DNA from: a virus
DNA length: 30,450 bases
IMG/VR virus record: IMGVR_UViG_3300042314_000291
Span: 1 to 30,450 of that record
Reading direction: 5' to 3' (one strand)
Within the stretch, counting starts at the first letter, position 1. Every line of letters begins with the position of its first letter. The notes beneath the pieces were generated by a model. The model was not told the DNA's origin and made no database searches. It was given only the letters and a program-made list of their open reading frames with translations. A program made the translations under genes and the position numbers. Below, one piece after another: positions 3,328 to 23,974 of this stretch.

Positions 3328-3996
3328 ATGAAGCAGATGCAATGGCAGTCAAGTTTCTTTGACGTGCTAGACGGATACTCAGTTGCACCGATACAAGCTC
3401 AGGATGCTGATTACTTAATTCTCAATGTTCATTACGCAAAGCGCAGACCTTCAATCACTCATGCCTTTGGATTGTTCAATTCAGGTGAGTTAGTCGGAGT
3501 AGTTACTTATGGAACTCCAGCATCATCTACTTTGTTGCGCGGTATCTGTGGTGACGATTGGGCGCAACACGTTTTAGAGCTGAACCGTTTGGTGTTAGTT
3601 AATAACCAACCACATGAAGCCAGCCGATTAGTCGGAGCATCACTCAAGCTATTACCTAAGCCAAGCATCATTGTTAGTTATGCAGACACAAAGCAAAAGC
3701 ATGAAGGCATTGTTTATCAGGCTACGAACTTTATTTATACAGGATTGAGCAGCAAGTTTCGTGATCCAGTAGTTCGTGGTTTAGAACATCAGCACCACGC
3801 AACTTACGCGCATGGCTTGACTAACGCGCAGCTTATAGAAAAGTATGGTGCAGACAATGTTTACTTTATTGAGCGATCTAGAAAGCACCGTTACATAATC
3901 TTTGTTGGTTCAAAGACTCAACGTAAACAAATGCTTAAAGACTTGCGGTATGAAATTCAGCCGTATCCAAATAAAGAAAGGTCTGCCAGTGGCTGA
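3328..3996 (+). CDS. Mom-like DNA adenine modification protein (paralog 1)
   Basis: A 222-residue protein of the GNAT-like Mom family. Mu Mom converts adenine in DNA to N6-acetamidoadenine (methylcarbamoyl form), shielding phage DNA from restriction. Motifs here: N33-x-H-Y36, V-G-V-V-T-Y-G, L-x-R-L-V-L-x-N, and a signature block starting S117-Y-A-D120 and running through K-Q-x-H, Y-Q-A-x-N-x-I-Y-T-G, S-S. The C terminus has K-H-R-Y and ends in P-Y-P-N. The same blocks occur in the protein at 11672-12325. The frame is open to a TTG at 3292, inside the terminator; ATG 3328 is preferred. It overlaps a ribbon-helix-helix gene by 8 bases. Family assignment is from motif recognition; the exact chemistry is not shown. 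Confidence 0.75.
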   Translation: MKQMQWQSSFFDVLDGYSVAPIQAQDADYLILNVHYAKRRPSITHAFGLFNSGELVGVVTYGTPASSTLLRGICGDDWAQHVLELNRLVLVNNQPHEASRLVGASLKLLPKPSIIVSYADTKQKHEGIVYQATNFIYTGLSSKFRDPVVRGLEHQHHATYAHGLTNAQLIEKYGADNVYFIERSRKHRYIIFVGSKTQRKQMLKDLRYEIQPYPNKERSASG

Positions 3997-9217: not shown

Positions 9218-9476
9218 ATGTGGTGTTTGCCCACGGTCATCCTCTATTGGGGATGGCTGGTGGGCAGTTCATAACTACAAGACAGACCCACCGACTGTCT
9301 ACGATCTATGTCCAAGCTGTTACCGCAACAAGAGCCTTATTGCTTACAGAGAGTCAATCATTGAAGCTCTTGAAGCTATTAAGATTACTGATCAAGAACC
9401 TGCGCTTCACGTTGCAATGCAAGTAATGAAACAGCATTGCATAGGCAAGGTTAGGGACTTACCATTCAATGACTAA
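9207..9476 (+). CDS. Zinc-ribbon protein, unknown
   Basis: An 89-residue protein. C5-x-x-C8 and C35-x-x-C38 enclose a W-W-containing loop, giving a four-cysteine zinc ribbon. The C-terminal half is helical (ESIIEALEAIKI...ALHVAMQVMKQH). The start overlaps the previous gene by 11 bases and the end overlaps the HNH gene by 8. Nucleic-acid or protein binding is likely, but not specified. Confidence 0.65.
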   Translation: MTSKCGVCPRSSSIGDGWWAVHNYKTDPPTVYDLCPSCYRNKSLIAYRESIIEALEAIKITDQEPALHVAMQVMKQHCIGKVRDLPFND

Positions 9477-9750
9477 ACCAATAAGACCACGCTCTAAAAA
9501 AATGGAAAGTCTTTACGCAACCGAACGCCGTAAGTTAGTAAAAGAGTTGCTTAGGGATTTCCCTGCGTGTCAGCGTTGCGCGATAGCTTATGCAACAGAC
9601 GTACACGAGATCAAGACACGCGCTAGAGGTGGCAGCATTGTGGACAAAGATAACCTTGCGTTACTTTGTAGACCTTGCCACACTTACATAACGCAGAATC
9701 CAGCAATAGGTAAGTCTGAGGGCTGGCTAAAGAATAGTTGGGATGACTAA
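9469..9750 (+). CDS. HNH endonuclease 1
   Basis: A 93-residue HNH nuclease. Structural cysteines C-Q-R-C and C-R-P-C bracket the catalytic region D-V-H-E-I-K-T-R-A-R-G-G and N-L-A-L-L-C-R-P-C-H-T-Y-I-T, giving the H-N-H triad. Small phage HNH proteins of this type can act as homing or repair nucleases or assist packaging. A second HNH gene lies nearer the terminase (10722-11027), so this one, inside the replication/repair operon, more likely serves DNA metabolism. Confidence 0.88.
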   Translation: MTKPIRPRSKKMESLYATERRKLVKELLRDFPACQRCAIAYATDVHEIKTRARGGSIVDKDNLALLCRPCHTYITQNPAIGKSEGWLKNSWDD

Positions 9751-10175: not shown

Positions 10176-10732
10176 CCACAATCATCACAACAACAGGCAA
10201 CAACTGCGCTACGATAACAGCAGATCAAGGCATAACTTCAAACCTTATTCACCCTGACATGCACAAGATAGTTCAGCAAGACACATGGCTTATTGGTGTT
10301 GCAGGAAGTGCAAGAGCTTGCGATCAGTTGCAGTATTCAATCGAATACCCGAAGCCACCTATTGAAGTAGTAAAGTCTGGCGAGTGGATGAAGTGGTTAG
10401 TTACTAAAGTAATTCCGTTGATAGATGACACTGTTAAAGATGCTGAGATGGATGCTGAGTGCTTACTACTTACACATGGTCAAGCATTCTTAATCAGCGA
10501 GAATCTAAGCGTACTAACAGCTAGACCTTACTGGGCAATAGGCACAGGCGCAGAGCTAGCACTAGGTTCACTAGCTGAGAAACAATACAAGCCTGACTGG
10601 CACAAGAACCATGATCTATCAGCTAAGCGAGCCATTGAAGCTGCCAGTATGCATGACCCCAATACCAGAGGCACGATCAACCAGTTCAAGAGTTACACGA
10701 ATGGAAAGATAATTGTAAGCAATGGCGTTTAA
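10172..10732 (+). CDS. Proteasome-fold (Ntn hydrolase) protein, HslV/beta-subunit-like
   Basis: A 186-residue protein. After Met removal the N terminus would be Thr1 (M-T-T-I), as in HslV and proteasome beta subunits, where Thr1 is the nucleophile. A-D17-Q-G matches the conserved Asp17 position, and K31 is close to the expected Lys33. Later W-L-I-G-V-A-G-S and A-I-G-T-G-A-E-L-A-L-G match the conserved glycine-rich elements of the fold. No ATPase partner (HslU/ARC-like) is in the window. Possible roles: host-protein turnover, a maturation protease, or a non-catalytic fold. Family is recognised from the pattern; peptidase activity is inference. Confidence 0.7.
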   Translation: MTTIITTTGNNCATITADQGITSNLIHPDMHKIVQQDTWLIGVAGSARACDQLQYSIEYPKPPIEVVKSGEWMKWLVTKVIPLIDDTVKDAEMDAECLLLTHGQAFLISENLSVLTARPYWAIGTGAELALGSLAEKQYKPDWHKNHDLSAKRAIEAASMHDPNTRGTINQFKSYTNGKIIVSNGV

Positions 10733-11027
10733 GAAACCTTGCTTGAAGTGCAAGACCCTGCACCGTAACTCGTCACTATGTGACAGTTGCCAACGCCTAG
10801 CCGATGCCACCCGTAACGCCAATAGACCTCATTACAAAGGTAATTATGCCAAGCAAGCAAAGATAGTCAGAGATACCGCTACTGTCTGTTGGCTATGTGG
10901 GCAAGGTCGCAGGCTGGATGACCCCTTTACGGCTGACCACTACTACCCAAGCGATCCAACAAGTCCGTTGATCGCAGCTCATAGGTCTTGCAACAGTCGC
11001 AGGGGAAACACACCCCCTACCGCATGA
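10722..11027 (+). CDS. HNH endonuclease 2, next to packaging genes
   Basis: A 101-residue protein with an N-terminal zinc ribbon (C-L-K-C, C-D-S-C) and an HNH core: C-W-L-C-G, T-A-D-H-Y-Y-P, H-R-S-C-N-S-R-R-G. An HNH gene directly upstream of terminase genes is typical of cos phages, where the HNH protein aids terminase cutting of cos. Start overlaps the previous gene by 11 bases. The stop lies inside a GC-rich inverted repeat that could be part of cos. Confidence 0.88.
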   Translation: MAFKKPCLKCKTLHRNSSLCDSCQRLADATRNANRPHYKGNYAKQAKIVRDTATVCWLCGQGRRLDDPFTADHYYPSDPTSPLIAAHRSCNSRRGNTPPTA

Positions 11028-11090
11028 CTAGGGGGCGGGTCAGAATCTCACACACACACCCCACCCTGAACCCCGACCTAGCACCATGTG
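11013..11090. other. GC-rich inverted repeat and noncoding region, cos candidate
   Basis: CCCCCTA (11013-11019) and TAGGGGG (11029-11035) form a perfect 7-bp inverted repeat around the HNH stop codon. It is followed by a C-rich tract with a short CA run (11049-11058) up to about 11090; then the sequence switches to AT-rich DNA before the ParB-like gene. No ORF of note lies in 11028-11156. The position between HNH and terminase genes and the abrupt GC peak fit a cohesive-end or packaging site; a terminator is the alternative, but no T-run follows. Confidence 0.4.
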
Positions 11091-11144: not shown

Positions 11145-11150
11145 TAGAAT
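11145..11150 (+). promoter_or_regulatory. Candidate leaderless -10 box for the ParB-Mom unit
   Basis: TAGAAT lies exactly 6 bases before ATG 11157, with AT-rich DNA upstream and no ribosome-binding site. No convincing -35 is seen (TTCAAT at 11121-11126 is weak). Confidence 0.5.
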
Positions 11151-11156
11151 GATTGC

Positions 11157-11675
11157 ATGACTGAACTGCGCATTGAAACTGTAAACATAAACAGCTTGAC
11201 CTTTGATCCTGCTAATGCTCGAAAGCATGACGGCAAGAATCTGAAAGCAATAGCAAGCTCATTAGAAAAATTTGGGCAACGTAAGCCAATTGTTGTAACG
11301 CCTGACTCGATAGTTGTAGCCGGCAACGGAACACTAGAAGCTGCAAAGTCTTTAGGCTGGTCAGAGATCGCAGTGGCTCGAACACCTATTGGCTGGACTT
11401 GGGATCAAATCAAAGCCTTTGCTTTAGCTGATAACAGAACAGCAGAACTTGCAGAATGGGATGCAGACGTTCTTAAAGAACAAATGTTAGAGCTAGATGC
11501 TAACGGCTGGGAATTAGAGGAGTTAGGTTTTGAATCTTTGCAACCGCCTAGTGATCCTGAGTTTCTGCCAACTATGGAAGAACAGCCAAGATTAGATGAA
11601 CTAAAACCAACAACTTGCCCTAATTGTTCTTTTGAATGGCGCACAGACTCCAAAGGCAACATAGAGCCAGTATGA
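11157..11675 (+). CDS. ParB/Srx-domain protein with C-terminal CxxC
   Basis: A 172-residue protein. It has the ParB-N core: N-A-R-K-H (20-24), I-A-S-S-L-x-x-F-G-Q-x-K-P-I-V-V, G56-N-G-T-L-E-A-A63 in place of the G-E-R/H-R box, and A-D-N-R-T-A-E-L-A-E-W-D (91-102), typical of phage ParB-like proteins linked to DNA modification. The C terminus has C144-P-N-C147 and an S-K-G-N end that may form half a zinc site. It overlaps the mom-like gene as ATGA, so the two are co-translated. In phages, ParB-like proteins associate with DNA methylases and other modification genes; acting as the DNA-targeting or nucleotide-switch part for the Mom-like enzyme is inference. Confidence 0.85.
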   Translation: MTELRIETVNINSLTFDPANARKHDGKNLKAIASSLEKFGQRKPIVVTPDSIVVAGNGTLEAAKSLGWSEIAVARTPIGWTWDQIKAFALADNRTAELAEWDADVLKEQMLELDANGWELEELGFESLQPPSDPEFLPTMEEQPRLDELKPTTCPNCSFEWRTDSKGNIEPV

Positions 11676-12325
11676 CAATTCAAATAGCAGGAGTAGATCA
11701 CAAGACTGCTCAGTTTGCAGTTATGAACTTTCATTACTCGCAACAAATGCCAATTGGAAAGTTAATTAAATTTGGTGTTTGGGAAGATGAAAAGTTTATT
11801 GGTGCTGTGCTTTATGGTCGTGGAAGTTCACCACTCTTAGGTGCTGCTTATGAACTACAACAAACAGAAGTTTGTGAATTAGTTAGAGTTGCTTTGACAA
11901 ATCACAAAGCACCAGTTAGCCAAATTGTCAGCTTGACTATGAAGCAATTAAAACTAGACAATCCAAAAATGCGCTTGATAGTTTCTTTCGCTGACTCTAG
12001 GCAGAATCATCATGGTGGTATTTATCAAGCTATGAATTGGATTTACACAGGCAAGAGCAGTGAAGCAAAAGAATACTTTTATCAAGGTAAGTGGTATCAC
12101 CAAAGAATGATTGGAAAGACTGGATTTGGTGGGGATACGGTTTTATCAAAGCTGACAGATGAAGAAAAAAAGAACTTGATAGTCCGAAAGATTGACGGCA
12201 AGTATCGTTACTTGTATCCTCTTGATAAGCAGATTAGAAGAAAAATTGTTAAACTAGCGTTACCTTATCCCAATGCCGTTGAGGGCTTAGAAGTAAGCCA
12301 CGACAATTCCGTTGTCGAGGTGTAA
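11672..12325 (+). CDS. Mom-like DNA adenine modification protein (paralog 2)
   Basis: A 217-residue GNAT-like protein of the Mom family, starting at ATG 11672 (ATGA overlap with the ParB-like gene; the frame upstream to 11636 is inside that gene). Motifs shared with 3328-3996: N19-x-H-Y22, K-F-G-V-W, F-I-G-A-V-L-Y-G, E-L-V-R-V-A-L-T-N, and the signature S105-F-A-D108 followed by R-Q-N-H-H-G-G-I-Y-Q-A-M-N-W-I-Y-T-G-K-S-S, then K-Y-R-Y and P-Y-P-N near the end. Mu Mom adds a carbamoylmethyl group to adenine N6, protecting DNA from nucleases. This copy sits next to terminase, so it is probably expressed late, before packaging. Substrate is unproven. Confidence 0.8.
   Translation: MTIQIAGVDHKTAQFAVMNFHYSQQMPIGKLIKFGVWEDEKFIGAVLYGRGSSPLLGAAYELQQTEVCELVRVALTNHKAPVSQIVSLTMKQLKLDNPKMRLIVSFADSRQNHHGGIYQAMNWIYTGKSSEAKEYFYQGKWYHQRMIGKTGFGGDTVLSKLTDEEKKNLIVRKIDGKYRYLYPLDKQIRRKIVKLALPYPNAVEGLEVSHDNSVVEV
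12284..12317 (+). repeat. Two tandem perfect hairpins at the end of mom-like gene 2
   Basis: GGCTTA-GAAG-TAAGCC (12284-12299) is followed after one base by CGACAA-TTCCG-TTGTCG (12301-12317). Both are 6-bp perfect stems with small loops, in the last codons of the mom-like gene and about 50 bases before the small terminase gene. There is no T-run. They might be a processing site, a translational control element, or part of the packaging region. Confidence 0.45.
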
Positions 12326-12364
12326 GTGCAATTCTTACCAACGGCTCAAAGTTAGTAGGTTGAA

Positions 12365-12814
12365 ATGGCTCCAAGAGGTAGACCACCAAAACCGATAGAA
12401 CAGAAACGCTTAACAGGCAACCCGGGCAAGCGCACACTGCCAGACCAAAAAGAACTTGTGCTGTTGCCGTCTGCCTATGACATTCCAGAGCCATCACGTC
12501 AGCTACTAAGTGCAGGTCAAGAACTTTGGGATCGCATTTGGGGAATGGGTCAAACTTGGTTAAGCCCTACTACCGATGTTGATTTATTGCTTATGACTTG
12601 CGAGCTTCTAGATGAACGCCGTAACTTGCGCATTCAAGTTATGCAGAATAACCGACCAGATGAACGTAAAGCCTTGCGCGATCTTGACCGCCAGTTAGTC
12701 GCTAACCTTTCGCTCTTAGGATTTACGCCAACAGACAGATCACGTTTAGGCGTGGCAGAAGTTAAACGTCAATCAAAGCTAGAGGAACTGCGATCTCGTG
12801 CCAGCCAAAATTGA
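12365..12814 (+). CDS. terS: Terminase small subunit (P27-like)
   Basis: A 149-residue protein with the P27-family N terminus G-R-P-P-K-P-I-E-x-K-R-L-T-G-N-P-G-K-R, then a helical core (W-D-R-I-W, L-L-x-T-C-E-L-L-D-E-R, L-R-D-L-D-R-Q-L-V-A-N-L-S-L-L-G-F-T-P-T-D-R-S-R-L-G). It recognises the packaging site and guides the large subunit. Start is preceded by a weak AGG. It overlaps the large terminase by 17 bases. Confidence 0.9.
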   Translation: MAPRGRPPKPIEQKRLTGNPGKRTLPDQKELVLLPSAYDIPEPSRQLLSAGQELWDRIWGMGQTWLSPTTDVDLLLMTCELLDERRNLRIQVMQNNRPDERKALRDLDRQLVANLSLLGFTPTDRSRLGVAEVKRQSKLEELRSRASQN

Positions 12815-14312
12815 GTCATGGCCACCGACTTGGTTAACACCTGTGAACAAAGCAGCTCTTAACAAATCGCGTGGCTGGGAAGTTTCAGACTTCATAGATA
12901 CTTTTGCTATTCAGACTAAGGAAACTGTTGCCGGTTATGCAGGTGACAAGATGCAAATGCGCGAATGGCAGAAAGAACTTATGAAGCATCTGTTTGCTAT
13001 TGGTGCTGACGGAAAGTTTAGACACCGCACTGCGCTAATTGGAATGGCCCGGAAGAACGGTAAATCAGCAATCGGTTCTGGCATTGGTCTTTGGTCTTTA
13101 ATCATGGGGCCTAACGGTGGTGAAGTTTATTCTTGTGCAGCTGATAAAGAGCAGGCTCGTATTGTTTTCGGTGATGCAAAGAAAATGATTCAGGCTGAAC
13201 CTGAATTAGAAGAACTTTGCAATGTCTACCGAGATGCAATAGAAGTACCAGCAACGGGTTCTGTTTATCGCGTTCTATCAAGTGAATCATTTACTAAAGA
13301 GGGTCTGTCACCCACAATGGTTATCTTTGATGAGCTTCATGCTGCACCTAACCGCGAACTCTTTGACGTTATGCAACTTGGTATGGGTGCAAGACGTGAG
13401 CCTATGCTCATTGGTGTTACAACTGCTGGCGTAAGAGCAGATTCAAGTGGTCAAGATTCTATTGCATACAACCTTTATCAGTACGGGCAGAAAGTAGCTC
13501 GTAAAGAAATAGATGATCCAACATTCTTCATGGCTTGGTGGGAAGCGCAAGCAGAAGCAGACCATCATTTAGAGCAAACTTGGAAAGACGCTAACCCTGC
13601 CTTTGGTGATCTCAACGACCCTAAAGACTTTGCAGCAATGGTTAAGAGAACCCCAGAAGCAGAGTTTAGAACTAAGAGATGCAACCAATGGGTAAGCAGT
13701 CAGACAGCTTGGCTACCTAACGGCTCATGGGAACAACTAGAGATTCAGCGTGAGATAGGCGCAGAAGTTCCAGTTGTTTTAGGCTTTGACGGTTCGTTTA
13801 GCGGTGATGCATCTGTAATCATCGGCGTAACTGTCGAAGATCAACCTTATGTCTTTATGGTCAAGGCTTGGGAAAAGCAGCCAGAAGATGATGATGAATG
13901 GCGCGTGGACATTCTAGATGTAGAAAATACAATTATTGAATTCTGTTCTACTCATAACGTCAAAGAGATAGCCTGTGACCCATTCCGTTGGCAACGCACT
14001 ATGCAAGTTCTAGATGAAGCAGGATTTCCAATCGTTGAGTGGCCGTCTACTTCGCCGGCTCGTATGGTTCCAGCTTGTGCAAAGTTCTATGATGCAGTGG
14101 TATCTAACAAGCTAACCCATGACGGCAACCCATTACTTACAAGACACCTATCAAATGCGGTAGTTAAGACTGACAGACTTGGACCGAGAATTGTGAAAGA
14201 ACACAGAGGTTCACCGAGAAAGATAGATGCTGCCGTTGCTAGTATCATAGGATTTGATAGGGCAACTGTTTCAAGAGAAGAACCCGTTGTGCCACAGTTC
14301 TTTAGCTTCTAG
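12798..14312 (+). CDS. terL: Terminase large subunit
   Basis: A 504-residue packaging motor. The ATPase domain has a Walker A-type loop G82-M-A-R-K-N-G-K89-S90 and Walker B M-V-I-F-D168-E169. The C-terminal RNase H-like nuclease has acidic residues D321 (F-D-G-S), D384 (A-C-D-P-F-R-W) and a late K-I-D-A-A. It cuts and pumps DNA into the prohead. Start is GTG 12798, inside the small subunit gene; no better downstream start is seen. Length is usual for the family (about 500). Confidence 0.95.
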   Translation: MPAKIESWPPTWLTPVNKAALNKSRGWEVSDFIDTFAIQTKETVAGYAGDKMQMREWQKELMKHLFAIGADGKFRHRTALIGMARKNGKSAIGSGIGLWSLIMGPNGGEVYSCAADKEQARIVFGDAKKMIQAEPELEELCNVYRDAIEVPATGSVYRVLSSESFTKEGLSPTMVIFDELHAAPNRELFDVMQLGMGARREPMLIGVTTAGVRADSSGQDSIAYNLYQYGQKVARKEIDDPTFFMAWWEAQAEADHHLEQTWKDANPAFGDLNDPKDFAAMVKRTPEAEFRTKRCNQWVSSQTAWLPNGSWEQLEIQREIGAEVPVVLGFDGSFSGDASVIIGVTVEDQPYVFMVKAWEKQPEDDDEWRVDILDVENTIIEFCSTHNVKEIACDPFRWQRTMQVLDEAGFPIVEWPSTSPARMVPACAKFYDAVVSNKLTHDGNPLLTRHLSNAVVKTDRLGPRIVKEHRGSPRKIDAAVASIIGFDRATVSREEPVVPQFFSF

Positions 14313-20461: not shown

Positions 20462-21637
20462 GTGTCAAAACCCTTAGCAATCGGATGGAACAGCAACGCA
20501 CCTTGGGCTGCAACTGGTTATGGAACTCAAACAGCGCAAGTAACCCAGCGACTAAAAGAGCTTGGTCACGATGTAGCGATCTTTAACAACTACGGTCTAG
20601 AGGGAAGCAACACAGACTGGAACGGGATGACCGTTTATCAACGTGGCGCGGACTTGTATTCAAATGATGTAGTTCCTGCACACATGCACGATTGGACTAC
20701 ACGCCACCCTAAGCAGGGTCACATTCTTTTTACTCTCTATGATGTATGGGTTTTCAAAGGTGATCGTTGGTCTGACTGGAACGTGGCTAGCTGGGTTCCA
20801 ATAGATCACATTCCTGCACCGCCAGAAGTAACTAGGTGGCTAGCACAAGACTTTGTAACGCCTATTGCTATGAGCCAATACGGGCAGTCAATGATTGAAA
20901 ATGTAGGCATTGAATCGCTTTATGTGCCACATGGAATTGAGTCAGTCTTTAAGCCAATGAAACGCCATAAAGGAACTACTGGCAGAGATTACATAGGCAT
21001 TGGCGAAGATAAATTTGTTGTAGGAATGAACGCAGCTAATAAAGGTGTTAGCCCTAATCGCAAGGCATTTGGTGAGAACATTCTGGCGTTCTCTATGTTT
21101 GCACAGAAACATGATGACGTAGTTCTTTATCTGCATACTGATCAGCTTGGCTCACTCGGCGGAATTAAGTTAATGCAGTTGCTTCAATCTTGTGGAGTTC
21201 CTGAGGACAAATTTAAGTTTGTTGAGCCATACACTTATCGGACTGGTATTGACCAGCAGACTTTAGCCACGATCTATACGGCTATGGATGTATTGCTTGC
21301 TACTTCATACGGCGAGGGTTTTGGTATTCCAACTATTGAAGCGCAAGCCTGTGGAACACCTGTAATCGTTAGCGACTTTGCAGCTTCAACAGAGCTACTA
21401 GGTGACGGCTGGCTAATTGACGGGCAACCGCTTTGGGATGCACCGCAGTCATCTTGGTTCCACATGCCTAGCGTTCCTGCAATCGTGGATGCACTAGAGC
21501 AGGCTTATCAGCGTGGACGTGGCAGATCAGAAAAGGCACAAGAGTTTGCTAAGGCGTATAACGCCGATACCGTCTTTCAGCAGCATTGGAAGCCAGCTTT
21601 AGCAGTCTTAGAAACTAAAGCCTACGAGCGACTATAA
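20462..21637 (+). CDS. GT-B glycosyltransferase (GT4-like)
   Basis: A 391-residue protein starting at GTG 20462 after AAAGGA. The N-terminal glycine-rich loop G-W-N-S-N-A-P-W-A-A-T-G-Y-G-T-Q binds the acceptor side; the C-terminal nucleotide-sugar site has the E-x7-E motif E285-G-F-G-I-P-T-I-E293-A-Q-A-C-G-T-P-V-I. This is the retaining GT4 pattern. It probably transfers a sugar from a nucleotide-sugar donor. First gene of a four-gene sugar block between capsid and connector genes; modification of virion proteins is the simplest role, DNA or host glycan modification being alternatives. Confidence 0.85.
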   Translation: MSKPLAIGWNSNAPWAATGYGTQTAQVTQRLKELGHDVAIFNNYGLEGSNTDWNGMTVYQRGADLYSNDVVPAHMHDWTTRHPKQGHILFTLYDVWVFKGDRWSDWNVASWVPIDHIPAPPEVTRWLAQDFVTPIAMSQYGQSMIENVGIESLYVPHGIESVFKPMKRHKGTTGRDYIGIGEDKFVVGMNAANKGVSPNRKAFGENILAFSMFAQKHDDVVLYLHTDQLGSLGGIKLMQLLQSCGVPEDKFKFVEPYTYRTGIDQQTLATIYTAMDVLLATSYGEGFGIPTIEAQACGTPVIVSDFAASTELLGDGWLIDGQPLWDAPQSSWFHMPSVPAIVDALEQAYQRGRGRSEKAQEFAKAYNADTVFQQHWKPALAVLETKAYERL

Positions 21638-21639
21638 GC

Positions 21640-22443
21640 ATGAAAATAGGCTGGTACACGCATCACATAGAGAATGCGCCTAAAGTGGCTCACGGTGGCT
21701 CTGTGAGTCCCAGAGGGCTATTCACGGGGCAGTTCGCAGGTGGGGCTGAAATGTCTGACTATGAATACCGTTTACAAGCTCCTCTAGATTATGAGATCGA
21801 AATTGTCACCCCATACACATTCGATACACACGACATACACCAATTTGATTCAGTCATAGTCACAGGCACAGATGCGTTCACGGAGGCTCAGCTATACAGA
21901 CTGGCAGAGTATGACCCATTTGTATTCGTGCATCACTTACAAACCCCACGCGCAGGGCTTAATGCTTTGATTCGTGGCTCTCGCTTATTCGCAACCCATA
22001 CCCCTGCACACATGCGCAGAGAGTTATCTTGGACAAAGCCACGCAAGACAGCGCAAGTTCTAAGCTACTTTGATACGAGCAAGTGCTACGACCACATGGA
22101 CAAGAAACCAATAGCACTATGGGCTGCTAGGAATCATCCGCTAAAGGGGCAGCTACGCGCTCACGCTTGGGCAGCACAAGCAGGTTATGAGTTCAAAGCT
22201 CTGACAGATGTACCGCGTGAACAGGTACTAGATGCAATGGCAAGAGTCGAATGGTTTGTGCATTTACCATTAGCCTTTGAGTCAGAATGTCGCGCAGTAA
22301 TGGAAGCGGTGCTTTCAGGTTGCAGGATTCACACGAACGAGAACGTAGGAATTACTAGCGTTGAAGATTGGCATGATGCAGATGCATTGCGCCACATGAT
22401 AGATAAGGCAGGCGATACATTTTGGAAACTGGTGCAGCAATGA
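21640..22443 (+). CDS. Second GT-B-like glycosyltransferase
   Basis: A 267-residue protein. N-terminal G-G-A-E-M-S-D sits where GT-B enzymes bind acceptor. The C-terminal H-L-P-L-A-F-E-S-E-C-R-A-V-M-E-A-V-L-S-G-C matches the donor-site helix with E spacing like E-x7-E. It is shorter than usual GT4 enzymes (about 350-400) and may be compact or act with the upstream transferase. Begins two bases after the previous stop; ATGA overlap with the next gene. Confidence 0.7.
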   Translation: MKIGWYTHHIENAPKVAHGGSVSPRGLFTGQFAGGAEMSDYEYRLQAPLDYEIEIVTPYTFDTHDIHQFDSVIVTGTDAFTEAQLYRLAEYDPFVFVHHLQTPRAGLNALIRGSRLFATHTPAHMRRELSWTKPRKTAQVLSYFDTSKCYDHMDKKPIALWAARNHPLKGQLRAHAWAAQAGYEFKALTDVPREQVLDAMARVEWFVHLPLAFESECRAVMEAVLSGCRIHTNENVGITSVEDWHDADALRHMIDKAGDTFWKLVQQ

Positions 22444-23114
22444 GAATGCTTACAATCATTCCGACAAGAGGGCGCAACGATAACGCCATTAGATTATTTG
22501 AAGCTATCAACGCAACGGCAGACTTTACAGAAGTCATCTTTGCAATAGATGCAGATGACGTTAAAACATATAACGGACTCATGGCAGAAACTGCTGGGCT
22601 AAATAACGTCAAGGTTTGCATTGCTGATCGTATGGGGATGAACGGCACACTTAACCACTGGGCTTTATGGTTTGCGCCTGACTATGATTACATCTGTTTT
22701 ATGGGTGATGATCACCTACCGCGCACAGGTGGCTGGGATACGAAACTTGCAGAAGCTATTGGGACTGAGCCGGGCATTGCTTATGGAAACGATTTACTGC
22801 AAGGCGAGAACCTACCAACTGCCGTAGTTATGTCTAGCAAGATCATTAGGGCTACTGGATTTATGTCACCGCCAGCCTTAAAGCACTTGTTCCTAGATAA
22901 CTACTGGCTTGCAATGGGTCACGCTTTAGAGAACGTGAACTACTTGCCAGAGGTAATCATTGAACACTTGCACTACACAAACGGTAAGGCAGCCCATGAC
23001 GATAGATACGCAGCTGTAAACACCGTTGAGATGCACAATGGCGATCAGGCTATCTTTGCTGAATACCTAGCCACAGAATTTAGCAATGACGTTGAGAATG
23101 TAAAGGCTTGGTAA
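22440..23114 (+). CDS. GT-A glycosyltransferase (family 2-like)
   Basis: A 224-residue protein from ATG 22440 (ATGA overlap; the frame upstream lies in the previous gene). N-terminal I-I-P-T-R-G-R-N-D-N-A, then I-D-A-D-D (about 36-40), and the metal-binding D-x-D-type motif M-G-D90-D91-H-L-P. These are features of GT-A inverting transferases. The C-terminal part (W-L-A-M-G-H, H-Y-T-N-G-K) probably shapes the acceptor site. Acceptor is unknown. Confidence 0.78.
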   Translation: MRMLTIIPTRGRNDNAIRLFEAINATADFTEVIFAIDADDVKTYNGLMAETAGLNNVKVCIADRMGMNGTLNHWALWFAPDYDYICFMGDDHLPRTGGWDTKLAEAIGTEPGIAYGNDLLQGENLPTAVVMSSKIIRATGFMSPPALKHLFLDNYWLAMGHALENVNYLPEVIIEHLHYTNGKAAHDDRYAAVNTVEMHNGDQAIFAEYLATEFSNDVENVKAW

Positions 23115-23974
23115 TGAAGATTCTTATTACAGGGCATAAGGGTTTCGTAGGTCGTAACTTTGTTAAGGCTTTGCCAGATAGCGACATAACAGGCATTGAC
23201 CTAAAAGACGGCAATGATTGCAGGGATTTCTTCAAAAGCAATACAGATCAGTTCGATCTAGTAATTCACTTAGCAGCCATTGTTGGTGGTCGCGCAACTA
23301 TTGAGGGTGAGCCACTAAGCGTAGCCACAGACTTATCCATAGATGCAGAGTTCTTTAACTGGGTGCAAAAGACTAAGCCTAAGAACGTGGTCTACTTTTC
23401 TAGCTCGGCTGCTTACCCGATTGACTTGCAGAACTCACACCGCAGACACCGCCTAGCTGAATACGACTTGAATCTAGATGGCGTTAGGAATCCAGACCTA
23501 ACTTATGGCTGGGCAAAACTTACCGGGGAATACCTAGCGCAGTTTGTAACTGACTCAAACGTGTTTGTCTTTAGACCTTTTAGTGGTTACGGATCAGACC
23601 AAGATGCTGACTATCCGTTTCCTAGTTTCATTGACCGCGCTCTAGCCAAGGTAGAAGTCTTTGACATTTGGGGTGACGGTGAGCAAGTGCGCGACTTCAT
23701 CCACATTGAGGACATTGTTCAAGCTGTGCTGTGGCATGTTCAGACTGGGTACTTTGGCACGTTTAATCTATGTTCAGGCTTTGCCACTAGCTTCAATGAC
23801 CTTGCTCAAATGGTCTGCGAGGAAGCAGGCATCAAACCAATCTTTAACCACATAGTGACTGCGCCTACTGGGGTTGAGTATCGCGTTGGTGATTCGCATT
23901 TATCGCATCAGTATTTTATTCCGCAGATTACTTTGCGTGAAGGTATCCGTAGGGCATTAGCAGAACGCAAGTAG
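23114..23974 (+). CDS. NAD-dependent nucleotide-sugar epimerase/dehydratase
   Basis: A 286-residue extended short-chain dehydrogenase. Rossmann G7-H-K-G10-F-V-G13 binds NAD(P). H-L-A-A-I-V-G-G, S-S-S-A-A-Y-P and catalytic Y131-G-W-A-K135 are the family signatures, with R-P-F-S-G-Y-G and R-D-F-I-H-I-E-D-I as the sugar-nucleotide parts. Reaction is a change in a nucleotide sugar (epimerization or dehydration), supplying a donor for the neighbouring transferases. Start ATG 23114 overlaps the previous stop (TAATG). Confidence 0.9.
   Translation: MKILITGHKGFVGRNFVKALPDSDITGIDLKDGNDCRDFFKSNTDQFDLVIHLAAIVGGRATIEGEPLSVATDLSIDAEFFNWVQKTKPKNVVYFSSSAAYPIDLQNSHRRHRLAEYDLNLDGVRNPDLTYGWAKLTGEYLAQFVTDSNVFVFRPFSGYGSDQDADYPFPSFIDRALAKVEVFDIWGDGEQVRDFIHIEDIVQAVLWHVQTGYFGTFNLCSGFATSFNDLAQMVCEEAGIKPIFNHIVTAPTGVEYRVGDSHLSHQYFIPQITLREGIRRALAERK

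Follow-up and report, generated by a model that had tools for sequence, protein, structure and literature searches.

A ParB-like gene, a mom gene and an overlapping tRNA-Gly as a probable three-part DNA-hypermodification cassette in phages

In the window, a virus record of 30,450 bases with actinophage-like gene content, a gene for a ParB-like protein, a gene for the DNA-modifying enzyme Mom and a tRNA-Gly lie together immediately before the terminase genes. It is proposed, with fair confidence, that these form a three-part DNA-hypermodification cassette, in which the tRNA would supply the glycyl donor of Mom and ParB would act on the DNA side. The earlier reading of this DNA missed the tRNA-Gly, which is the most informative part of the cassette.

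Position and expression of the parB–mom pair

The parB gene (11157..11675, + strand) encodes a ParB-like protein of 172 aa, assigned by profile (phrog_620) and predicted structure, and mom (11672..12325, + strand) encodes a protein of 217 aa, assigned by profile (PF25680), PDB match and fold to the GNAT-fold DNA adenine-modifying enzymes. Both ORFs, and the 4-nt start–stop overlap ATGA (11672..11675, + strand) by which they had been said to be joined, were confirmed; the mom start is taken as the ATG at 11672, while the longest ORF would begin at 11636. Purifying selection acts on both genes (dN about 0.15–0.17 and dS >1 in comparison with L003/L004).

A leaderless promoter had also been suggested for the pair. 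A putative -10 box, TAGAAT (11145..11150, + strand), lies 6 nt before the parB ATG, and a TANNNT sequence starts exactly 12 nt before this ATG in the window, in L003 and L004 (TATACT) and in L042 (TAACAT); in L005-type relatives, an SD-like GGAGGC is present upstream of parB in its place. Conservation of the spacing despite base changes is as expected of a leaderless promoter and supports the suggestion, but a simple sigma-70 scan found no promoter before parB. Scans for sigma-70 promoters and for terminators gave nothing informative.

The original prediction placed the pair between a cos candidate and the small terminase gene. The downstream side was borne out by profile searches, with terS at 12365..12814 (+ strand) followed by terL at 12798..14312 (+ strand); the TerL translation contains a GMARKNGKS Walker-type motif and was used as the seed for the TerL search. 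Evidence for the cos side is indirect and comes from contig ends. A GC-rich stretch (11020..11085, no strand assigned) is a weak candidate for the region of the genome end. The contigs of L001–L003 and L042 start 68–86 nt before parB, and contig ends lie 50–99 nt upstream of parB in 9/65 cases, compared with about 0.7 expected if they were uniformly distributed; some of those near parB start with GGTTAC or GGTAAC. This fits a genome end just before parB.

The contig starts of L054, L075, L076, L080 and L087 share a motif, CTAGCRACAGA, shortly before parB (CTAGTAACAGA in L080), which may be a promoter or a terminase site near the genome end. Two small HNH-type genes are found upstream of the cassette (window 10722–11027 and 9469–9750), one of them directly before the presumed cos. 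Glycosyltransferase-like and sugar-epimerase-like genes, recognized from translations only, are situated in the structural region (window 20462–23974).

The Mom proteins

Mom matches PF25680 (9e-48) at 163.1 bits, against a cut-off of 27.1, over positions 2–201 of the 202 in the profile, and also matches phrog_1384. The sequence matches Mu Mom in the PDB (8bv8) at 3.8e-14. The AF2 model (pLDDT 85) matches the same structure at Z 19.5 over 194 residues, the next GNATs being at Z 12.6. S83 aligns with Mu S124, and S105-x-A107-D108 with SFAD, and all are invariant in alignment A4, so that both the serine altered in the inactive 8bv8 protein (S124A) and the SxAD motif are conserved. The window Mom is thus a predicted DNA adenine-modifying enzyme.

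The original label of the gene, mom-like gene 2, implied the existence of another, and a second Mom is indeed present at about 3331..3996 (+ strand; PF25680, 6.9e-37). It is 29% identical to the Mom of the cassette, belongs to a different clade of the tree, where it groups with ParB-less Moms, and has neither a ParB nor a match to the tRNA models beside it. Elsewhere, tandem Moms occur behind a single ParB (L013 7330–8699, L020 2363–3704 and L070 497–1728), with a tRNA-Gly element at the last copy only.

Recurrence of the ParB–Mom link

The survey of gene neighbourhoods strongly supports a conserved ParB–Mom module beside the packaging genes, as originally predicted; the pair recurs far above chance, whereas the prediction had named a lack of recurrence as its refutation. 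In IMG/VR, ParB is directly upstream in all query-close Mom loci that have upstream sequence, and an alignment search brought in a further 80 viral and 80 genome loci. A tree built from 157 Moms contains a clade of 127 members (SH-aLRT 98), of which 117 have ParB immediately upstream and span many bacterial phyla, nine have no ParB and one is at a contig edge. Outside this clade, 22 of the 30 Moms have no ParB, including Mu, which has Com, and the second Mom of the window; in five, all from Chloroflexota, ParB is downstream (support 100), and in two it is upstream. The tree was made by a quick method and includes numerous weakly supported inner branches. Given the Chloroflexota arrangement and the two ParB-upstream Moms outside the main clade, the link probably has more than one origin.

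The spacing is tight. Across 156 distinct ParBs followed by Mom, the gap has a median of −4 nt and is exactly −4 in 49, and the genes overlap or touch in 128. TerL lies within 4 kb of Mom in at least 69 of the 121 loci with room for it, at a median of 433 bp past Mom, and pairs occur away from the terminase too. No ParB–Mom fusion proteins were seen among the loci surveyed.

Distances between ParBs and between Moms correlate (r about 0.55). Co-evolution of the ParB tail with a particular Mom partner was looked for but did not show; the tail and the N-domain correlate with Mom about equally. A ParB that is identical, tail included, can adjoin Moms that differ by 42–46%, which again gives no sign of partner-specific co-evolution, and the reverse case was also seen. 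Adjacency of the two genes rebuilt each time in this way argues for a generic ParB–Mom interface rather than a finely co-evolved one.

Moms without ParB occur naturally in Mu and in Pseudonocardiaceae, and ParB is therefore not required by every Mom. In L127 (4971–7746) and other Pseudonocardiaceae loci, Mom is accompanied by neither ParB nor tRNA, and the L127 Mom directly precedes terS/terL-like ORFs. No phrog_620 match was found anywhere in the Lentzea genome G003. Mom and ParB-methyltransferases are of known kinds; a description of the conserved ParB–Mom pair was not found in the literature searched, and earlier base-modification papers may contain one.

Exchange with methyltransferases behind a common ParB domain

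A scan of the ParB family with a single N-domain query returned 80 loci, of which seven contain Mom; almost all the rest encode ParB-methyltransferase fusions, which occupy the same position ahead of the terminase. A phrog_620 search of genomes likewise returned mainly methyltransferase fusions. Comparison of L014, L201, L202 and L204 with L205, L208, L211 and L221, in which the flanking DNA is about 93–97% identical, reveals a replacement extending from LADN, a conserved motif at about residue 93 of ParB, to the start of terS. One group carries the C-terminal half of ParB, Mom and a tRNA-like element; the other carries a linker and an N6_N4 methyltransferase. The L014 N-domain has 85% aa identity to that of the ParB-methyltransferase fusions, and the same exchange is found in other lineages with flanks of 64–77% identity. 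In the window, the portion corresponding to that retained is the ParB/Srx N-domain, residues 1–93 (11157..11435, + strand), delimited by the breakpoint at LADN in L014 versus L221, L208 and L211.

Since Mom and methyltransferase interchange behind one N-domain, ParB is very likely a shared partner of exchangeable modification enzymes. Other neighbours of the family are methyltransferase, TAGT (TET-associated) glycosyltransferase, queuine-transglycosylase-like, ABC-GNAT and PAPS-reductase genes. The general association of phage ParB-like proteins with DNA modification, on which the original prediction drew, is supported by both the exchange and these neighbours. In L224, L232, L237, L266 and L294, ParB is found beside an ABC-GNAT fusion (phrog_11143), a queuine-transglycosylase-like gene, a TAGT glycosyltransferase or a PAPS reductase, often just before the terminase.

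A tRNA-Gly at the end of mom

A tRNA-Gly with anticodon UCC (12275..12349, + strand) overlaps the 3'-terminal 51 nt of mom in the sense direction. Its 3' CCA is not encoded, the element ending T-CAA. It was identified by ARAGORN (12275–12347), by Rfam RF00005 (12275–12346) and by covariance model R2 (5.7e-14, with the window copy in the training set). The 17 Mom residues that overlap it are at the end of the Mom model, where confidence is low. Glycine identity is indicated by UCC, U73, G1:C72 and C2:G71, but the third pair is C3:G70, which is present in 3/35 full-size forms, while the other 32 and 32/32 mini forms have G3:C70.

A survey of 225 Mom loci gave 24 tRNAs no more than 150 nt from the Mom stop, 18 of them Gly and six of unclear anticodon. 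Identified tRNAs near the stop are thus Gly in 18/18 cases versus 2/14 in other parts of these loci (Fisher p 4e-7, with near-identical loci among those counted). A structure scan revealed two forms, one full-size and one a mini form without a D-arm, which often end in U73-CCA and have a CC-containing anticodon-like loop. RNAalifold, applied to each set, gave acceptor, anticodon and T arms, with compensatory changes in 19/22 pairs of the full form and 14/19 of the mini form. Compared with shuffles, the full-form cloverleaf has 97% versus 66% paired cells and 220 versus 52 double changes, which none of 500 shuffles (0/500) equalled. G1C2/G71C72/U73 belonged to the search pattern and their invariance is therefore partly by construction; the unbiased evidence for glycine is the ARAGORN result and the pairs that were not searched for. 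Among the full forms, the D-loop GG is present in 15/35 and T54-G55-C56 in 13/35, and anticodon loops of 5 nt occur among the elements. Such noncanonical loops suggest that these may be non-decoding tRNAs. The mini forms were not reported by Rfam at its gathering score.

A first scan for acceptor stems missed window-type tRNAs inside the ORF and had a 9% background in control windows; covariance models for the mini (R1) and full (R2) forms were therefore used and run over 200 loci. An element is present at the 3' end of Mom in 104/130 ParB-upstream Moms, at offsets of −47 to +139 relative to the end of the Mom profile match, with a median of −19. Many of the tabulated matches are members of the training sets and match by construction, but these contained no Chloroflexota case. 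In the ParB-downstream Moms of Chloroflexota, 5/5 have an element 2–5 nt before the 5' end of the Mom profile match (E about 1e-12 to 1e-16), giving the order tRNA-Mom-ParB, a mirror image. Among ParB-less Moms, it is found at 1/34 (L292). Nine matches fall away from the scored Mom end; three of these (L029, L030 and L322) are still at a Mom gene, split or unlabelled, L101 and L168 are other tRNAs (Trp and Met by ARAGORN), L235 is a ParB-methyltransferase control and the other three (L143, L145 and L150) lie far upstream of ParB. The models found no element at the Mom of Firmicutes (e.g. phiEf11) and Yersinia prophage ParB–Mom pairs or of Mu, and the tRNA is therefore dispensable in these pairs. 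Over six independent pairs on the tree, ParB and the tRNA changed together in 4.5 on average, with almost no case of opposite change (median p 0.06).

In Acidobacteria-type loci (L143 1819–1895, L145 1840–1915 and L150 838–913), a tRNA-Gly element lies about 2–2.5 kb upstream of ParB rather than beside Mom. Salinibacter phage B2_17 (L322 1578–2781), an isolated phage, encodes ParB, a Mom annotated as hypothetical, the frame of which looks truncated, and a tRNA-Gly; it is a possible experimental model.

The phage tRNA-Gly probably provides the glycine that Mom puts on DNA. An unlikely alternative is that it has nothing to do with Mom chemistry, and is a translation supplement, an integration site or punctuation for RNA processing. 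tRNAs are common in phages, and a processing site at the position of this one, between mom and terS, would split messages, but Gly is the sole tRNA identity at this place, the D-armless and 5-nt-loop forms are unlike decoding tRNAs, and the element goes with Mom, not terS, both in the exchange and in the mirror-order Chloroflexota loci. In addition, adenosine hypermodification in Mu depends on tRNAGly for glycyl transfer, according to one sentence of a 2025 conference summary (PMC12908700), the only report of this dependence in the literature searched. The tRNA-Gly at mom had been found before this statement came to notice. A phage-encoded donor tRNA embedded in mom was not found described in the same literature, to which key base-modification papers may add.

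The ParB-like protein and its role

ParB matches phrog_620 at 8e-35, while the Pfam ParB_N match (17.2 bits) is below the 26.3-bit cut-off, and a sequence search found no relative of solved structure. In the AF2 model (pLDDT 88), built, like that of Mom, from an alignment made in this analysis, residues 5–126 match CTP-bound ParB 7bnr (Z 15.8, rmsd 2.2, 118 residues). Beyond residue 126, the 172-aa prediction contains only short strands and no C-terminal dimerization domain of the chromosome-partition type, and a domain search found no methyltransferase on the polypeptide, as would characterize the phrog_498 fusions. The arginine of the superfamily GxxR motif is replaced, the window having GNGT where most relatives have GHGR; about 19 relatives share the replacement (GNxT). 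The protein is therefore assigned to the ParB/sulfiredoxin superfamily by fold and profile and no activity is claimed, a CTP clamp or nuclease function being doubtful for this copy.

The C-terminal tail, FLP...QPRLDELKPTTCPNCSFEW (11562..11648, + strand), contains CPxC, and L146, C154 and C157 are invariant in an alignment of 51 ParBs, which confirms the CxxC element noted originally. The CPxC tail is present in 139/154 ParBs with Mom behind (a count that takes in L149, L157 and L170, in which Mom had escaped the script) versus 1/108 other ParBs, most of which are fusions ending in methyltransferase. A direct search for the tail showed that Abba carries it with no Mom beside it, and the Mom-linked ParBs of Bacteroidota and some Clostridia have a different tail.

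ParB most likely works on the DNA side. It may instead handle the charged tRNA, the CPxC tail or the domain catching Gly-tRNA and passing it to Mom, although this too seems unlikely. ParB and the tRNA co-occur (96 loci with both, one with tRNA but no ParB, 29 with neither and 17 with ParB only), and the two are jointly missing in Pseudonocardiaceae, which makes such a role possible. However, some ParB–Mom pairs have no tRNA, and the same N-domain works with methyltransferases, which need none.

A nuclease role, in which Mom would shield phage DNA while ParB nicks or cuts unmodified host DNA, has a precedent in a Bacillus cereus ParB-methylase reported to nick DNA nonspecifically (PMC5512222). 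It is less likely here given the loss of the GxxR arginine, and the existence of ParB without Mom (Abba) and of Mom without ParB shows that neither is tied to the other as a lethal pairing would demand; the nuclease role is rated as rather improbable.

It is also improbable that ParB mainly regulates mom in the manner of Com, with a zinc-knuckle tail binding RNA or an operator and controlling Mom synthesis. The position of parB, directly upstream of mom and overlapping it like com in Mu, and the invariant CPxC are suggestive of this, but the analogy with Com, drawn in the original prediction, finds no support. Com, an RNA binder, has a CCCC zinc finger (PMC6483171), whereas the window ParB has two cysteines in its tail and no such finger. 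RNA folding at the ParB/Mom junction resembles that of shuffles in five of six loci (z −0.4 to 0.5), the exception being L056 (z −2.6). Moreover, the N-domain also occurs in methyltransferase fusions, where regulation of mom is impossible, and the gene order is reversed in Chloroflexota. Simple hitch-hiking of ParB and Mom in a hypervariable slot beside the terminase can be dismissed almost entirely: the slot before terS is variable, but ParB became linked independently in Chloroflexota (in reverse order), L194 and L236, the overlap is kept across phyla and the pair is also found away from the terminase.

Proposed mechanism and significance

The reaction mechanism of Mom has been open for decades. 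In Mu, the product is N6-carbamoylmethyladenine, whose mass equals that of adenine and a single glycine residue together. Here, a single transcript starting at the parB ATG would encode ParB and, by translational coupling at the ATGA, Mom. The tRNA-Gly in the 3' end of this message would be excised and then charged by the glycyl-tRNA synthetase of the host, and Mom, with its GNAT fold, would move the glycyl group from Gly-tRNA to the N6 of adenines. ParB would grip DNA with its N-domain, which may work as a nucleotide-dependent clamp, and would couple to Mom through its C-terminal tail, as the N-domain serves the fused methyltransferase in sister phages. Progeny DNA would be modified before packaging, which the location of the cassette beside cos and the terminase fits, and would be protected against host nucleases. 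Mu would use a host tRNA-Gly, while the window phage and many others would bring their own. The parts, their conservation and exchange, and the covariation and glycine identity of the tRNA are read directly from the sequences compared; from these we infer the charging and use of the tRNA, the ParB–Mom contact, the DNA role of ParB, its direction or regulation of Mom and the timing.

A bolder form of the proposal, which may as readily prove wrong as right, is that the cassette is a ribonucleoprotein-like machine found in many phyla, made of a ParB-type DNA adaptor, a Mom glycyltransferase and a dedicated, often D-armless mini-tRNA-Gly within the mom message, which would be charged by the host, unsuited to the ribosome and reserved as the glycine donor for DNA.

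These genomes offer independent evidence for the chemistry reported in Mu, in that the donor tRNA is carried at the end of mom, including a minimal tRNA that goes unreported by Rfam at the gathering cut-off. About a hundred natural enzyme–donor pairs are available to test, and the minimal tRNA would be useful for studying recognition by glycyl-tRNA synthetase and the protection of DNA against restriction. Phage ParB-like genes annotated as nucleases are likely to be adaptors for exchangeable DNA-modifying enzymes.

Comparison with known systems

The com-mom operon of Mu shares with the cassette the fold and family of Mom, a small upstream gene overlapping mom and the reported dependence on tRNA-Gly (PMC12908700). 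It differs in having no ParB and no phage tRNA at mom, and Mu Mom is outside the ParB-linked clade. The ParB-methyltransferase fusions (phrog_498; ParB_N and N6_N4_Mtase) have in common with it the N-domain, the slot before terS/terL and a DNA-modifying partner, but the partner is fused, the chemistry is methylation, and there is no CPxC tail and no tRNA at the cassette. The CTP-dependent proteins ParB, Noc, KorB and PadC share the fold of residues 5–126 (Z up to 15.8); in contrast, the window ParB has only 172 aa, lacks a folded domain beyond residue 126, has lost the GxxR arginine and has no ParA partner that could be seen. In Rhodococcus phage Tonitrus, a parB-like gene is present in a thymidine-hypermodification cluster at the genome end; clusters of this type differ in their thymidine chemistry (TET/JBP, kinase, aGPT-Pplase2), with no Mom and no tRNA reported (PMC11955845).

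The idea that a tRNA-Gly is kept to supply glycine to a non-ribosomal transferase has a counterpart in staphylococci, in which a dedicated non-translational tRNA-Gly is used in cell-wall synthesis. Unlike that peptidoglycan donor, the tRNA described here is phage-encoded and includes mini forms without a D-arm, and its proposed target is DNA.
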